A stretch of DNA of 38,066 nucleotides from positions 1 through 38,066 of the forward strand of contig NZ_CALWJK010000020.1 in assembly GCF_944380975.1 (NCBI RefSeq), given 5' to 3'. Under the pieces are notes generated by a model. It searched no databases, was not told where the DNA came from, and saw only the letters and a list, made by a program, of their open reading frames with translations. Source of the DNA: an uncultured Agathobaculum sp. (GTDB taxonomy: Bacteria; Bacillota; Clostridia; Oscillospirales; Butyricicoccaceae). Positions 7,017 through 13,095 of the stretch are shown here, one piece after another. Made by a program: the position numbers and the translations under genes. The first letter of the stretch is position 1; each line of letters starts with the position of its first letter.

Positions 7017-8399
7017 TTGAGCTTCGCCGGGTTGGCTTTTCTGTTTTTCTTCCTGCCGATCGTTTTGGTGGGATATTATTGTTTTCCGCGCCGATGGCGC
7101 AATGTGTTTTTGCTGGCGGCCAATCTGGTTTTCTATGGATGGGGAGAACCGTGGTTTCTGCCGGTCATTCTGCTCACAGCGGTTGCCAATTGGCTGATTG
7201 GACGTCGCATTACCGCCTGCGCCGAAGCAGGGACCCGTCGGCTGTGGCTGATTGCCGCGCTGGTGCTCGATCTGGGTCTGTTGATTGTATTCAAGTATAC
7301 CGGTTTTTTGCTGGATACGATGGGGCTGGGGCAGGTGCTTGCAAAGCCGCTCCCGCTGCCGCTCGGCATCTCGTTTTATACCTTCCAAGTGATTTCTTAT
7401 GTGGTGGATGTTTATCGCAAAACCGCGCCCGCGGAGAAAAGTGTGGTGTCCTTTGCCACTTATATGACCTTTTTCCCGCAGCTGATCGCCGGGCCGATTG
7501 TGCGCTATGAGGAGCTGCGCGGCCAACTAGCAGCGCGCGAGGAAACTTGGAACAAGATCGCCAACGGCTTTTGCCTGCTGATGATCGGTCTCGGCAAAAA
7601 GATGCTGTTGGCCAATCCCATGGGACAGCTGTGGGAGGGTTTACGCGCGCTGCCGGATGGCATCGGACTACTGGGTGCGTGGATGGGCGCGGCTGCGTTT
7701 ACCATGCAGATATACTTTGATTTTTCTGGTTATTCAGATATGGCGCGTGGACTGGGCAGCATGTTCGGGTTTGAAATCCCGGTCAACTTCCGCTATCCTT
7801 ATGCCGCGCAGAGCATCAAAGAGTTTTGGCGACGCTGGCATATCACGCTCAGCCAATGGTTCCGCGATTATGTGTATATCCCGCTGGGCGGCAGCCGCTG
7901 CGGGACGACGCGGACGTTTGTCAATTTGTTCATCGTTTGGGTGCTGACCGGACTGTGGCACGGCGCAGCATGGAACTATGTGCTGTGGGGACTGTATTAC
8001 TTTGTCTTGCTCACAGCGGAACGCCTGATCGGGGAGGCGCGGCTGGCGCGCATACCGTGTGTGCTGCGGCACATCTTGACCATGGCGCTGGTCATGCTGG
8101 GCTGGGTGTTGTTTGCCATCGAGGATTTCAGCGCGCTGGCGAGGTATCTGCACGCTATGTTTACCCTGTCGGGTGGCTGGATCGGTGCGCAGGCGGCGGT
8201 CTGGGTGCTGTCCTATCTGCCGCTGTTCCTCGTGGCGGTGTTGGCGTCCCTGCCGCTTGCAGCCCGGTTGGTGCAGCGCCATGATCAGGCGCGCTTCGTG
8301 CAGTGGGGCGCACCGGTTTGGTGCCTGCTGCTGCTTGCAGCAAGCTGTGCGGCGTTGGTGGCGCAGAGTTATAATCCGTTTTTGTATTTTCGGTTCTAA
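7017..8399 (+). CDS. MBOAT-family O-acyltransferase (AlgI/DltB-like)
   Basis: A 460-residue polytopic membrane protein. It would move acyl groups from a cytoplasmic donor across the membrane for O-acylation of a surface polymer. The hallmarks are the motif WRRWHITLSQWFRDYVYIPLG (His275) and the catalytic His315 in GLWHGAAWN. N-terminal features FYGWGE and PLGISFYTFQ are also typical of the PatA/AlgI group. The start is a TTG at 7017 with AAAGGCGG eight bases upstream; no better ATG exists nearby. It is followed 14 bp later by the DHHW protein, the usual extracytoplasmic partner. Confidence 0.92.
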   Translation: MSFAGLAFLFFFLPIVLVGYYCFPRRWRNVFLLAANLVFYGWGEPWFLPVILLTAVANWLIGRRITACAEAGTRRLWLIAALVLDLGLLIVFKYTGFLLDTMGLGQVLAKPLPLPLGISFYTFQVISYVVDVYRKTAPAEKSVVSFATYMTFFPQLIAGPIVRYEELRGQLAAREETWNKIANGFCLLMIGLGKKMLLANPMGQLWEGLRALPDGIGLLGAWMGAAAFTMQIYFDFSGYSDMARGLGSMFGFEIPVNFRYPYAAQSIKEFWRRWHITLSQWFRDYVYIPLGGSRCGTTRTFVNLFIVWVLTGLWHGAAWNYVLWGLYYFVLLTAERLIGEARLARIPCVLRHILTMALVMLGWVLFAIEDFSALARYLHAMFTLSGGWIGAQAAVWVLSYLPLFLVAVLASLPLAARLVQRHDQARFVQWGAPVWCLLLLAASCAALVAQSYNPFLYFRF

Positions 8400-8413: not shown

Positions 8414-9550
8414 ATGCAATTTCGGCATCCCCGTGCGGTGGCGCTTTTGTTCGCCGGGGTTTTGATTGGTACGCAAGCGGCATTTTGGTTGCTGCCGCGG
8501 CGTTCTTTTTCGCAAAACGAGAAGCGTGTGCTGGCGCAGAAGCCTGTTATCAGTGCAGAGGGCATCGCGGACGGCAGCCTGTTTCAGGACGTGGAACAGT
8601 ATCTGTCCGATCATTTCCCGGGACGAGATGGATGGGTGGGCGCAAATGCTTATCTGGAGCAGGCAGAGGGACGGGGCGCTGCGGGCAGTATTATCTCCGG
8701 TGCAGATGGATGGCTGTTTCCCGCGCCGCTTTCGGACGACAGACAGATCTTGTAGGACAATATGCAGGCAATCACCGCGTTTGCGCAGGCGCAATCCGTG
8801 CCGGTTTATCTGATGGTGATTCCGACCGCGGGCGCAGTGGTGGAGGACAAGCTGCCCGCTTTGCATCTGGATTACCCGGATGCAGATATGCTGGAGCAGG
8901 CGCGGCGCATCGCGGGCGACAGCCTGCAATGGCTGGACGTGATGGAAGATTTTAGCACTGCAGAAGAGAGGGACAAACTCTATTATCGTACCGACCACCA
9001 CTGGACAACCGAGGGCGCTTATCGTGCATACTGTCTGCTGATGCAGGAGATGAGGGAGCCAGCCGTCTCACGCGACGCTTTTTCGGTGGAGCGGGTGTCG
9101 GATTTTTACGGCACTTCGTACTCCAAAAGCGGCCTGTGGCTGACGCCGCCGGATGAGATCGAACTGTGGACCGATCCGGATTTGCAAGCGGTAATCAGCG
9201 TGCATGACGGCAACCGTCGGGAGCCGATTGTGCAGCAGGGCATGCTGTTTCGGGAATATCTCAGCGAGGCGGATAAATATCCGGTATTCTTGAGCGGCAA
9301 TCATGCGCGCATCCATATTGAAACCAACGCGGATAGTGACAAGCGGCTGCTGGTGGTAAAGGATTCCTATGCTCATGCACTTGCTCCTTTCCTTGCGGAG
9401 GAATATCGCACGATCGACTTGATCGACCTGCGGTATTTCAAGCGGCAGACGGTTTCGGATTGGATGCAGGAGCATCCGGTCGATGAAGTCCTGTTTGTCT
9501 ATGGTTTGAGCAGTCTAGCAGAGGACAAAAATCTGCAATGGCTGGCATAA
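8414..9550 (+). pseudogene. DHHW/AlgJ-like acylation partner protein with an in-frame amber codon
   Basis: The frame starts at ATG 8414 (AAAGGAG nine bases upstream) with one N-terminal membrane anchor. It runs 377 codons apart from a TAG at 8753-8755 (codon 114, between DDRQIL and DNMQAI). Downstream are VIPTAGA and the family signature YYRTDHHWTTEGAY, then KDSYAHALAPFL, matching the SGNH-like fold of DHHW/AlgJ/AlgX proteins. These accept the acyl group from the MBOAT protein and pass it to the glycan. The stop separates the membrane anchor from the catalytic part, so without readthrough the cassette would lose its extracellular transferase. An ATG at 8762 could restart, but lacks a clear ribosome site. 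Confidence 0.85.
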
Positions 9551-9558
9551 TTTAAATG

Positions 9559-9596
9559 AAAAAGCCGATGTGCAATTGACTGCACATCGGCTTTTT
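9559..9596. terminator. bidirectional intrinsic terminator
   Basis: A 16-bp perfect stem (AAAAAGCCGATGTGCA / TGCACATCGGCTTTTT) lies between the convergent DHHW gene and bilS. It has A/T runs on both sides, so it can end both transcripts. Confidence 0.92.
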
Positions 9597-9608
9597 CAAG
9601 TAGCAGGC

Positions 9609-10094
9609 TTATCGACGGAGTGCCATCTCCCGCAGATGCTCCAGGTCAGCCGCATCCGGATGGGACAGCGCGGCATCGAAGTTGTCGAGCATGGCCTGAC
9701 GGCGCGGGCTGTTCTCCATGGCTTCGTAGCGGGCGCGGACAGTCGCAGGCATTTTACCCTGACACATGTAGCTGCCGCATACGGTCGCGCCATCCGGCAG
9801 GTTCTGACGTGCGGCGGACAGGATTTTGTCGAAATATTCCGGCGCGCCGCCGAAGCCCGCCGTGCCGAACAGAAATACCTCCTGCGTGGTCACACGCGAG
9901 AGAAATGCAGCGGTGTCTGCGTCGCAGGTGCCCTTGTCCGTCCAGAAGCCGACATAGATGCGTTCGGCGCGCAGGGCTTCGTCGCTTGACGTGCCGAAAT
10001 ACAGGCAGTCATCGGCAGGCAGGGTATCGCGGAGGGTTTCAGCCAGCAGGCGGGTGTTGCCGGTCTTGCTGCTGTAAACGATTGCGTAAGTCAT
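9609..10094 (-). CDS. bilS: BilS-type flavodoxin
   Basis: A 161-residue flavodoxin-like protein. The phosphate loop for FMN is SSKTGNTRLLA at residues 8-18, and later loops (FGTAGFGG) match the flavodoxin fold. In bilirubin-reducing gut bacteria a flavodoxin gene accompanies bilR and is thought to support the reductase, presumably as an electron carrier. Here it begins inside the bilR stop (ATGA at 10091-10094), so translation is coupled. Naming follows the operon context; the flavodoxin fold itself is clear. Confidence 0.85.
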   Translation of the reverse strand: MTYAIVYSSKTGNTRLLAETLRDTLPADDCLYFGTSSDEALRAERIYVGFWTDKGTCDADTAAFLSRVTTQEVFLFGTAGFGGAPEYFDKILSAARQNLPDGATVCGSYMCQGKMPATVRARYEAMENSPRRQAMLDNFDAALSHPDAADLEHLREMALRR

Positions 10095-11203
10095 GCGTTT
10101 TCCTTCCTTTCATAGATGCAATGTACGCCTTGGTGGGCCATCATGCCGCCAAGGCATTTTTTGTTGCAGCGCACACAGCGCCGAATTTCGTTTGCATGGC
10201 CGGAGCAAACCTTGCGCGGCCAGTCCGGATCGGCAATCAGCTGGCGACTCATGGCCGCGCAATCAATGCGGCCAGAGGCAAGCTGCTGCTCGATGAAGTC
10301 CGGCTGCGTCAGTCCGCCGACACCGCAGATGGGCAGCTTCGTCAGCTGCCGTACCGCGTCGCAGAACGGCAGAAAGCAGCCTTCTGCGTGGAAATATGGA
10401 TGATTGGCAGGCGGAATGGTGTCGGTCAGTTCGCCGTGGTTCGCCAGCGTGACATGAAAGCTGGTCACGCCTGCCTGCTCGAGCAGTAGGACGAATACGG
10501 GAAGCTCCTCCTGCAATACGCCAGCGTTGCCATAGTGCGGATTTTCCTGCCGCACGGCCAGCTTGTAGTCGATCGGCAGATCAGGCAGGCGGCGGCGCAC
10601 TGCCTTGACAGCCTCAACAGCGAAACGCGCGCGGTTTTCCGGGCTGCCGCCGTATTCATCCGTGCGGTGGTTGTATACGGTTGAGCTGAAGCTGCCGCAC
10701 ATGCGGTCGCCGTGAATTTGCACCATGTCGAAGCCTGCTTTGTACGCGAGCACGGCAGCGTCCCCGAAGGCATCCGTGATTTCGTGAATCTTGCGTACCG
10801 GCAAATTGGTGATATACGGCCCGACCTGTTCATTCAGCAGCGGGCGCAGGTCGGCCATGCTGATGCGCTTGGTGAGCACACCCGGGATGTACTTGAGCAT
10901 GGCTTTGATATTGGAATCTGACTGGTGCAGCTGCGCACACAGCAGGCAACCCTCAGCATGCACGGTTTCGGCAATGCGCTGATAGAGGGCGAAGCCCTTT
11001 TTGGTGTAAAGCGACGGGCCGAAGCCGTGCTTCAGCACCGGCACATCGCCCAGAATAATCATCGCGCAGCCGCCCGCGGCGATAGCGCGATAGCGGGCGA
11101 TTAGTTCGTCCTCGGACAGACCCATCGAGGTGGGGGCAAAAATGATGCGGTTTTTCAGGGTCAGCCCGCCGTAGTTTACCGGGCTGTTTATCGTCTCGTA
11201 CAT
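10091..11203 (-). CDS. bilR: bilirubin reductase BilR (old-yellow-enzyme family)
   Basis: A 370-residue TIM-barrel flavin oxidoreductase. It lacks the C-terminal FAD/NAD domains of 2,4-dienoyl-CoA reductases. Where ordinary family members have HGAHGYL, this protein has H164-G165-D166-R167, the signature I recall for gut bilirubin reductases (Asp166/Arg167). Other barrel features are KNRIIFAPT, NHRTDEYGGS and CGVGG. Cys343, Cys346, Cys350 and Cys362 form a CxxCx3C...C set suited to an iron-sulfur cluster. The expected reaction is reduction of bilirubin toward urobilinogen in the anaerobic gut. The start overlaps the bilQ end by 16 bases and has only a weak, distant AGGAAG, suggesting translational coupling. 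Function is inferred by motif and synteny. Confidence 0.88.
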   Translation of the reverse strand: MYETINSPVNYGGLTLKNRIIFAPTSMGLSEDELIARYRAIAAGGCAMIILGDVPVLKHGFGPSLYTKKGFALYQRIAETVHAEGCLLCAQLHQSDSNIKAMLKYIPGVLTKRISMADLRPLLNEQVGPYITNLPVRKIHEITDAFGDAAVLAYKAGFDMVQIHGDRMCGSFSSTVYNHRTDEYGGSPENRARFAVEAVKAVRRRLPDLPIDYKLAVRQENPHYGNAGVLQEELPVFVLLLEQAGVTSFHVTLANHGELTDTIPPANHPYFHAEGCFLPFCDAVRQLTKLPICGVGGLTQPDFIEQQLASGRIDCAAMSRQLIADPDWPRKVCSGHANEIRRCVRCNKKCLGGMMAHQGVHCIYERKENA

Positions 11204-11616
11204 AGCTTGGTATTCGCTTCCTTTTCTTTGACTTTGGCGAGCAGCGCCAGTAGCTGTGCGCGTTCCTGTTCGCTCAGCGGCTGCAGCACATCGTTGTCCC
11301 AGTCAAAAAACACTTGATGACTGGTTTCAAACGCCTGCATGCCCTTTTCGCTCAGGGTCAGGCGATAGGCACGGCCCTGTTTTTCCCGCAGGAAGAAACC
11401 GTCCTCCACCAGCCGCAGTGTGCTGCGCTGGCAGTAGCCCCAGTCCAGACCGAGTGCGTTCGTCAGTTCGGCCTGTGTGCAGCCCGGATGGCGGCCGACA
11501 TAGAGCAGCGGATACAGTAGTCCCTGGCTCAGCCCGATCTGCTCAAGCACATGCGCAGTATAGGCGGTGAAGCTGCGGGACAGCACCGTGGAATAATAGG
11601 CTAAGGTATTGACCAT
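11188..11616 (-). CDS. bilQ: MarR-family regulator BilQ
   Basis: A 142-residue winged-helix protein of the MarR fold. N-terminal dimerisation helices are followed by a helix-turn-helix (about residues 50-73: TQAELTNALGL, CQRSTLRLVEDG) and a wing containing REKQGRAYRLTLSEKG. It is the first gene of the bilQ-bilR-bilS operon. Two identical-type palindromes cover its own promoter, so it is very likely an autorepressor relieved by a ligand, perhaps a tetrapyrrole (inference). The start at 11616 is preceded by AAAGGAG. Confidence 0.85.
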   Translation of the reverse strand: MVNTLAYYSTVLSRSFTAYTAHVLEQIGLSQGLLYPLLYVGRHPGCTQAELTNALGLDWGYCQRSTLRLVEDGFFLREKQGRAYRLTLSEKGMQAFETSHQVFFDWDNDVLQPLSEQERAQLLALLAKVKEKEANTKLCTRR

Positions 11617-11633
11617 CAGGAATATACTCCTTT

Positions 11634-11648
11634 CTTGACTTTGTCAAG
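11634..11648. promoter_or_regulatory. MarR-type operator, proximal copy
   Basis: A perfect palindrome, CTTGAC-TTT-GTCAAG. It overlaps the -10 and probable start point of the bil promoter and is the reverse complement of the distal copy, 28 bp away centre to centre. Confidence 0.8.
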
Positions 11649-11675
11649 TATAAGCCTAAGACTTGACAAAGTCAA
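11647..11675 (-). promoter_or_regulatory. bilQRS promoter
   Basis: On the minus strand TTGACT (11675-11670), a 17-bp spacer and TATACT (11652-11647) lie 31 bp before the bilQ start and are embedded in the two operators. Confidence 0.85.
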
Positions 11676-11676
11676 G
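11662..11676. promoter_or_regulatory. MarR-type operator, distal copy
   Basis: A perfect palindrome, CTTGAC-AAA-GTCAAG. It contains the -35 of the bil promoter, so a dimer bound here would block RNA polymerase. Confidence 0.8.
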
Positions 11677-11729
11677 TATGAATTACGGAATTTTCATTTT
11701 GTTCACAAAGGGGGAATGTGCGTTGTGGC

Positions 11730-11758
11730 TTGACAGCTGCCGCTGCGCGCGGTATAAT
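11730..11758 (+). promoter_or_regulatory. consensus sigma-A promoter of the antiporter
   Basis: TTGACA at 11730-11735, a 17-bp spacer and TATAAT at 11753-11758: a perfect match on both boxes. Transcription should begin near 11765, exactly at the start of the riboswitch. Confidence 0.93.
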
Positions 11759-11764
11759 ACCATC

Positions 11765-11858
11765 CGAGGGAATGAAGTGCTCCCGTGGCATAAGAGCCAA
11801 AACCGCTGATAAAGCTGATGACTTCTGCAAATTGTTTGCAGGGTTATCAGCTTTTTTT
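11765..11858 (+). promoter_or_regulatory. fluoride riboswitch (crcB motif) with terminator
   Basis: The leader has the fluoride-aptamer layout. P1 is GGGA (11768-11771) with UCCC (11781-11784). The P1 loop GAAGU (11774-11778) can form the pseudoknot with ACUUC (11821-11825). The conserved tail is AAAACC-GCU...AGC-UGAUGACUUCU (11799-11827). A small extra hairpin (GGC/GCC) sits between. Overlapping the aptamer's 3' part is a terminator: AAAGCTGATGAC (11811-11822) with GTTATCAGCTTT (11843-11854) and T7 (11852-11858). Fluoride binding would hold the aptamer and prevent the terminator, switching the antiporter on. The expression platform and family are established knowledge; the match is by eye. 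Confidence 0.85.
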
Positions 11859-11892
11859 GTGCCTGCAAACGGGAAACAAGGAGGAAAATACG

Positions 11893-13095
11893 ATGTTAAC
11901 AAGTCTTGCCCTGATTTTTCTGGTAGGGATGAGCTTGGGATGGATCGTCACCCGGCTGCGGCTGCCCAGTCTGCTGGGCATGCTGCTGACCGGCATCCTG
12001 CTCGGGCCGTATGTGCTCAACCTGCTGGACGCGTCCATTTTGGGCATCTCTGCTGACCTACGTCAGCTCGCACTTATCATTATCTTGACGCGCGCAGGAC
12101 TGTCGCTCAATCTGGAAGATTTGAAAAAAGTGGGCCGTCCGGCGGTGCTGCTGTGCTTTGTACCCGCCTGCTTTGAAATGATGGGTATGATCCTGCTCGC
12201 ACCGCGGCTGCTCGGTATTTCGGTGCTGGATGCCGCTATCATGGGCGCGGTAGTGGCGGCGGTGTCGCCCGCCGTTATCGTGCCCAAAATGCTGCGGCTG
12301 ATGGAACTAGGGTACGGCGCGCGGCACAGCATCCCGCAGATGATTTTGGCGGGCGCATCGGTGGACGATGTGTTTGTTATTGTCATGTTTACCGCCTTTA
12401 CCGGTCTTGCGCAGGGTGGCACGGTATCGCCCGCGACGTTTGTGCAGATTCCGGTCTCGATTGTGACTGGCATTGCGTTCGGCCTGCTGGCGGGTGTCGC
12501 GTTCGGTGCGGTGTACCGCCGCATTCATGTGCGCGACTCGGTCAAGGTGGTCGTGCTGCTCAGCCTGTCGTTTCTGTTTGTCGCACTGGAAAACGCGCTC
12601 AAGGGCATCGTGCCGTTTTCCGGACTGCTCGCGGTGATGAGCTGCGGCATTGCAATCAACCGTCGCCGTCCCGAGCTGGCGGCGCGCCTGTCGGGCAAGT
12701 ATAACCGCCTGTGGGTTGCGGCTGAAGTGCTGCTGTTCGTGCTGGTCGGTGCGACGGTGGACATCGGCTATGCGGCAGCAGCGGGTGTTGCGGCCGTGCT
12801 GGTCGTGCTGGGCGCGCTGGTGTTCCGCATGGCGGGCGTGTTTGTTTGCCTGCTGCACACCGCGCTTGACCGAAAGGAGCGTCTGTTCTGCATGCTGGCT
12901 TACACGCCCAAGGCGACCGTACAGGCTGCAATTGGTTCGGTGCCGCTCTCGCTTGGTTTGGGCTGCGGACAGATCGTACTGACCGTGGCAGTACTTGCCA
13001 TCCTGATCACCGCGCCGCTCGGTGCGTTTGCGATCGACCTGACCTACCGCCGTCTGCTCGGGCAGGCGGATGCGCCGCAGGAAACCGCGGCATAA
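11893..13095 (+). CDS. cation:proton antiporter (CPA family), fluoride-riboswitch controlled
   Basis: A 400-residue polytopic membrane protein with about 12 hydrophobic segments. The CPA features are the N-terminal LGMLLTGILLGPYVL and ILTRAGLSLNLEDL segments, the discontinuous-helix region VVAAVSPAVIVPKM, and GASVDDVFVIVMF with paired aspartates. It would exchange Na+ (or K+) for H+. Antiporters are known members of fluoride-riboswitch regulons and are presumed to help cells under fluoride stress, either by moving ions with fluoride or by countering acid. The start at 11893 has AAGGAGG eight bases upstream. It is a single-gene transcription unit ending in a strong terminator. Confidence 0.9.
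   Translation: MLTSLALIFLVGMSLGWIVTRLRLPSLLGMLLTGILLGPYVLNLLDASILGISADLRQLALIIILTRAGLSLNLEDLKKVGRPAVLLCFVPACFEMMGMILLAPRLLGISVLDAAIMGAVVAAVSPAVIVPKMLRLMELGYGARHSIPQMILAGASVDDVFVIVMFTAFTGLAQGGTVSPATFVQIPVSIVTGIAFGLLAGVAFGAVYRRIHVRDSVKVVVLLSLSFLFVALENALKGIVPFSGLLAVMSCGIAINRRRPELAARLSGKYNRLWVAAEVLLFVLVGATVDIGYAAAAGVAAVLVVLGALVFRMAGVFVCLLHTALDRKERLFCMLAYTPKATVQAAIGSVPLSLGLGCGQIVLTVAVLAILITAPLGAFAIDLTYRRLLGQADAPQETAA

Follow-up and report, generated by a model that had tools for sequence, protein, structure and literature searches.

Organization of the bilQ-bilR-bilS locus

The window analyzed here is a stretch of 38,066 nucleotides (nt) from an uncultured Agathobaculum sp. (contig NZ_CALWJK010000020.1, assembly GCF_944380975.1), and its source contig belongs to a 2.34-Mb genome of 88 contigs that is 91.09% complete. 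Its minus strand contains three open reading frames (ORFs) overlapping in series, which by their sequences are a bilQ-bilR-bilS operon, a further example of a known system in another genus. Bilirubin reduction by gut bacteria governs the amount of bile pigment returning to the blood. What the analysis adds is a well-supported candidate operator in front of bilQ, recognized from its conservation. The genes and the diagnostic motif are as follows:

11188..11616, minus strand: bilQ, MarR-type regulator, 142 amino acids (aa); NCBIfam NF045593, 151.7 bits (cut-off 125)
10091..11203, minus strand: bilR, short-type bilirubin reductase with an Old Yellow Enzyme barrel, 370 aa; NF045592, 571.3 bits (cut-off 425), and position in the tree
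10703..10714, minus strand: HGDR codons of bilR, residues 164–167, invariant in 26 aligned rows
9609..10094, minus strand: bilS, flavodoxin, 161 aa; NF045594, 214.9 bits (cut-off 155)

An earlier note on this DNA had placed three genes at 9609–11616, describing HGDR at residues 164–167 of a short Old Yellow Enzyme-type protein with a flavodoxin gene overlapping downstream and a MarR gene overlapping upstream. The ORFs were found there, the bilQ/bilR and bilR/bilS overlaps being 16 and 4 nt, respectively, and the identification is borne out by matches to curated family models, by the presence of HGDR, by the way the operon is arranged, and by the position of the enzyme in a tree with the BilR of Clostridium symbiosum. 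BilQ, the BilR domain (E 8.2e-172), and BilS each scored above the curated NCBIfam cut-off, and Pfam returned Flavodoxin_3 (164.9 bits) for BilS, Oxidored_FMN (139.7 bits) for BilR, and the winged helix HTH_24 (24.1 bits; cut-off 21.9) for BilQ. The long BilR, BaiCD, NamA, and other rival NCBIfam models were also matched, at scores far under their own cut-offs.

The authors of the BilR clade delimit it by an E value below 1e-100 on their own barrel profile, for which NF045592 stood in here. With a strong match to that stand-in, HGDR at 164–167, and grouping with characterized BilR, the window enzyme belongs to BilR (clade 1), and with PF00724 as its sole Pfam family, 370 aa, and no C-terminal domains, it belongs to BilR-short (clade 2). 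The adjoining flavodoxin gene and the MarR gene at the operon, both above curated cut-offs, correspond to BilS and BilQ. The BilR assignment is not a product of chance, because, among 295 genomes of the order, 10 scored above the NF045592 cut-off, versus none of 14 control genomes; weaker Old Yellow Enzyme matches occurred in 150 of the 295 and in 13 of the 14.

Relatives were taken as the best 80 of 173 loci. A quick maximum-likelihood tree built from 105 rows placed the 89 HGDR rows on one side of a branch (support 100) and the 16 other Old Yellow Enzymes on the other. The window BilR fell in a 7-row Agathobaculum group (support 99) nested in an 82-row group (support 96) that includes C. symbiosum ATCC 14940. 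The phylogenetic check proposed in the earlier note therefore grouped the enzyme with C. symbiosum BilR, apart from other Old Yellow Enzymes; C. symbiosum is the only characterized species represented, through a strain other than the assayed reducers WAL-14163 and WAL-14673 (PMC10769871). Among these best 80 of 173 loci, the nearest BilR proteins are those of Ca. Agathobaculum merdipullorum (95%) and Ca. Agathobaculum pullicola (94%), and BilQ was above cut-off in 8 of 25 genomes of the genus. The bilS start lies 4 nt before the bilR end in 48 of the 70 loci in which BilS was found, and the bilR/bilQ overlap is 16 nt in 26 of 74 loci with BilQ, most others overlapping by different amounts; gene starts were placed by alignment in these counts, some of which may be off.

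We did note that bilR appears in two pieces in the relatives L015 (G124) and G671:C6:49807-50897, which may reflect either loss of the enzyme or an assembly error. Short BilR genes with no BilS or BilQ found alongside occur in L006 (G173), L010 (G110), and L014 (G294), where the electron donor and control must therefore differ.

Twin palindromes at the bilQ promoter

Between bilQ and its divergent neighbor gene lie two palindromes, ACTTGACnnnGTCAAG, 28 base pairs (bp) apart, on which the earlier note, sound in its gene identities, was silent. Read on the minus strand, they appear as TTGACTTTGTCAA, 15 bases, and TTGACAAAGTCAA, interlocked with a promoter:

11663..11675, minus strand: candidate operator site 1, TTGACTTTGTCAA, opening with the -35 hexamer TTGACT (11670–11675)
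11647..11652, minus strand: -10 hexamer TATACT, separated from the -35 by a 17-bp spacer (10/12 promoter matches)
11635..11647, minus strand: candidate operator site 2, TTGACAAAGTCAA, overlapping the -10 hexamer by its own first base

This promoter geometry is identical in all 57 aligned loci, in every one of which A2 and T6 of the -10 are present, with the full TATACT in 49. In the window and 80 named loci, the region preceding the first operon gene contained an exact site in 66 of 81 versus 1 of 4050 shuffles, and the palindrome pair (at most three mismatches in all) in 64 of 81 versus 0 of 4050, the shuffles preserving first-order base steps no more than approximately. One locus at a contig end (L076, a slice of 5019 bases) is counted as a miss, and the figures without it are 66/80 and 64/80. 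The spacing of the pair is 28 in 57 loci, 27 in 5, and 29 in 2. Stretches elsewhere in the loci yielded an exact site in 3 of 2545 and a pair in 3 of 2545.

In the 73 loci with an adjacent bilQ, a site with at most one mismatch is present in 70 (versus 11 of 1460 shuffles) and the pair in 60. The loci are related by descent, for which the sole correction was clustering of BilQ at 60% identity; the pair then occurs in 13 of 18 clusters and a site in 17 of 18. Beyond the 73, the pair is present in L051, L052, L056, and L092, a single site (one mismatch) in L112, and no site in L107 and L109; L076 was set aside. The longer pattern TATACTTGACNNNGTCAAG, allowed one mismatch, gave 17 matches in 10 of 15 genomes (13 with BilQ and 2 without), of which 16 are immediately 5′ of bilQ or bilR and 1 is in a coding region; this stricter pattern did not match in the BilQ genomes G203, G138, and G213, which have one exact short site each. 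A pattern search of 391 class genomes, whose sampling was not aimed at bilQ genomes, detected no pair beyond that of the window, and a reversed control matched once.

Several observations weigh against the candidate operator: the full pair is missing from 13 of the 73 loci in which bilQ is adjacent, three of the 73 (L097, L104, and L110) lack even a site at one mismatch, and the pair in C. symbiosum (L103) is weak, with three mismatches and a spacing of 27. No exact site is present in L012 either, where the neighbor of a long BilR is a MarR gene with 40% identity to BilQ.

BilQ as the likely binding protein

The twin palindromes are probably the operator of BilQ, a candidacy that is favored by loci in which the gene has moved. 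In Faecalibacterium sp. An122 (L052, G293), bilRS has the exact pair with no bilQ alongside, and a BilQ above cut-off is encoded on another contig, its promoter carrying the pair at one mismatch. In F. gallinarum (L051), bilQ lies 3.5 kb away on the opposite strand and the pair is found at both promoters; the promoter of this moved bilQ also accounts for one exact site among the three single ones found elsewhere in the loci. Conversely, the two genomes with bilR and no BilQ above cut-off (G110 and G173) have no exact site at bilR.

A different reading is that another protein binds the palindromes, or that they are mere promoter shape, given that TTGAC is also the -35 consensus and that BilQ binding is itself a prediction from sequence. 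We regard this as quite improbable. A promoter needs neither the GTCAA halves nor the outer C and G, and yet these are kept: the outer bases, which lie outside the selection pattern, are retained at 0.95, 0.89, 0.98, and 0.91 in the 57 loci. The sites also accompany bilQ when it moves and are absent where BilQ is not detected at its cut-off, as described above.

We found no operator for BilQ in the searched literature on bilQ and bilR; one may be described elsewhere, notably in subscription journals. PMC10769871, the only paper found to use bilQ with this meaning, names it twice and describes no operator, and the 2026 preprint PMC13252198 does not mention bilQ. In Faecalibacterium sp. An122, an arylsulfotransferase (PF05935) gene lies in the neighborhood of the moved bilQ (L157:7136-8923, plus strand; G293).

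Electron supply and predicted product

Four cysteines lie in the C-terminal tail of BilR:

10118..10177, minus strand: codons spanning Cys343, Cys346, Cys350, and Cys362, invariant in 9/9 and 26/26 aligned rows

They align with Cys334, Cys337, Cys341, and Cys353 of 1ps9 (positions counted by hand) and are presumably the expected [4Fe-4S] ligands. Given that BilR keeps these cysteines and has neither the flavin domain nor the NAD(P)H domain of long BilR, BilS is most likely the electron feeder. Two points count against this picture of the enzyme: the cysteine tail is poorly predicted, residues 345–370 falling under 50 in predicted local distance difference test (pLDDT) score, and the locus search chose relatives by HGDR-bearing or LKNR-type peptides, such that the generality of HGDR among the rows is partly by choice.

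According to the preprint, BilR reduces only the methine bridges, yielding divinyl-urobilinogen and divinyl-urobilin, and vinyl-group reduction, and hence urobilinogen, requires BilV (AHAH motif), with bilV present in 0.4% of bilR-short species (PMC13252198). A PF00724 search of the window's own genome returned BilR as the single match, and a query with the BilV-like L018, itself BilV-like by its AHAH motif alone, retrieved only BilR (31% identity) from this 91% complete genome; the complete BilR plus BilV pathway was not found there. No second Old Yellow Enzyme-like ORF was found in the fetched DNA of the 80 named loci. Because BilR is the single Old Yellow Enzyme seen and the preprint assigns the vinyl groups to BilV, the product here is probably divinyl-urobilinogen, less reduced than urobilinogen. 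The earlier note had predicted conversion of bilirubin to urobilinogen; its operon stands, but urobilinogen as the end product is probably overstated, with no bilV found and the chemistry reported in PMC13252198. Against the divinyl product, the genome's 91% completeness means that bilV, or a glucuronidase, may have been missed.

The 2024 paper (PMC10769871) agrees with the earlier note that BilR and BilS of the same operon alone take bilirubin to urobilinogen, and its results conflict with a divinyl end product: when E. coli carried bilRS of either C. difficile or C. symbiosum, urobilin was detected by liquid chromatography-tandem mass spectrometry, and turnover of mesobilirubin was reported as well. 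The preprint, which has senior authors in common with that paper, reports divinyl products only, with neither an m/z 591 nor an m/z 593 product from C. symbiosum cultures or from BilR by itself. We hold full reduction by BilR-BilS to be unlikely.

More plausible, if still doubtful, is that this short Old Yellow Enzyme naturally serves another pigment or enone, biliverdin foremost, with bilirubin as a side substrate. Biliverdin is the main excreted pigment in birds, bilR-short is prevalent in birds, and BilR also accepts biliverdin as a substrate (PMC13252198); near relatives of the window locus (L037, L040, and L047) carry poultry-derived names. The GH2 domain PF02836 was not found in the genome in a search that covered the GH2 glucuronidase family only, and the organism may therefore not itself free bilirubin from its glucuronide. 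On the other side, the curated family and the HGDR clade to which the enzyme belongs are those assayed on bilirubin, and we retain bilirubin reduction to divinyl-urobilinogen as the preferred function.

Genome G084, from the same family, encodes a long Old Yellow Enzyme (L018:462-2408, minus strand) that is a BilV-like candidate solely by its AAHAHG motif; BilR above cut-off was not found in that genome.

Flanking features

A terminator-like hairpin follows bilS:

9557..9598, minus strand: terminator-like hairpin 3′ of bilS, 19 pairs followed by a T-rich tail

Two terminator-like sites were found in 9500–12000 versus a mean of 2.6 in shuffles, and therefore stem length alone speaks for the hairpin. 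On the plus strand, ORFs 8414–8755 and 8762–9550 sit in different frames within 8414–9550, preceded by an MBOAT gene (7017–8399); the second matches DHHW/ALGX from the middle of the DHHW profile only, and the two may be one interrupted gene. A fluoride riboswitch (RF01734, 11759–11834, plus strand; 44.5 bits, cut-off 34) has a promoter with 12/12 matches 5′ of it (11730–11758) and a Na_H_Exchanger gene 3′ of it (11893–13095). It is found on the bilQ contig, within ~1.2 kb of bilQ, in all 8 genus genomes with BilQ above cut-off.

Proposed mechanism and significance

Taken together, we read the locus as a short-type bilirubin-reductase operon in which BilS would feed electrons to BilR, the product in the absence of BilV would be divinyl-urobilinogen, and BilQ would repress through the two palindromes until a ligand arrives, a reading to which we assign a probability of roughly 85%. 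The genes, motif, cysteines, promoter, conserved palindromes, and lack of a second Old Yellow Enzyme were observed here, the BilR and BilV chemistry comes from the two papers, and we infer the electron route, BilQ as the binder, its ligand, and repression. Electrons would most likely pass from the BilS flavodoxin via the iron-sulfur cluster to the flavin mononucleotide (FMN) of BilR, from which hydride would be transferred to the pigment with Asp166/Arg167 as the proton donor. BilQ would bind both palindromes, covering the -35 and -10 of its own operon, and be released when bile pigment or a related ligand is present.

A bolder proposal, which we put forward tentatively and at just short of even odds, is that BilQ is dedicated to sensing bile pigments. 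It would be a repressor on twin 16-bp palindromes that lock the -35/-10, released by bilirubin, biliverdin, or the product, with a one-promoter regulon conserved in gut Clostridia, including those in which bilQ has moved away, and in Agathobaculum governing a truncated, bilV-less pathway ending in divinyl-urobilinogen.

The operon in a further genus is a modest addition. The conserved candidate operator is more useful, as it points to the DNA for BilQ tests, opens the question of the BilQ ligand to direct testing, and could be developed into a bile-pigment reporter. With no bilV found, the predicted product also allows the 2024 and 2026 accounts to be tested clearly against each other.

Comparison with known systems

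The HGDR of the window BilR replaces the Tyr166 region of a related enzyme, whose two C-terminal domains are absent here. With the long BilR of Ruminococcus gnavus and the BilR-insertion type with BilV (PMC10769871 and PMC13252198), the window enzyme has the barrel domain and HGDR in common; it differs in having neither the C-terminal flavin nor the NAD(P)H domain of long BilR, in its separate BilS, and in that bilV was not found in its genome. Closest is the bilQ-bilR-bilS system of C. symbiosum and Clostridioides difficile, with which (PMC10769871) it shares all three genes: a short BilR with HGDR at 164–167 and its flavodoxin and MarR partners. Comparison at the protein level covered C. symbiosum ATCC 14940 and gave 64% identity for BilR; compared with C. 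symbiosum, the genus differs, and the operator pair is exact in the window but weak in that strain.
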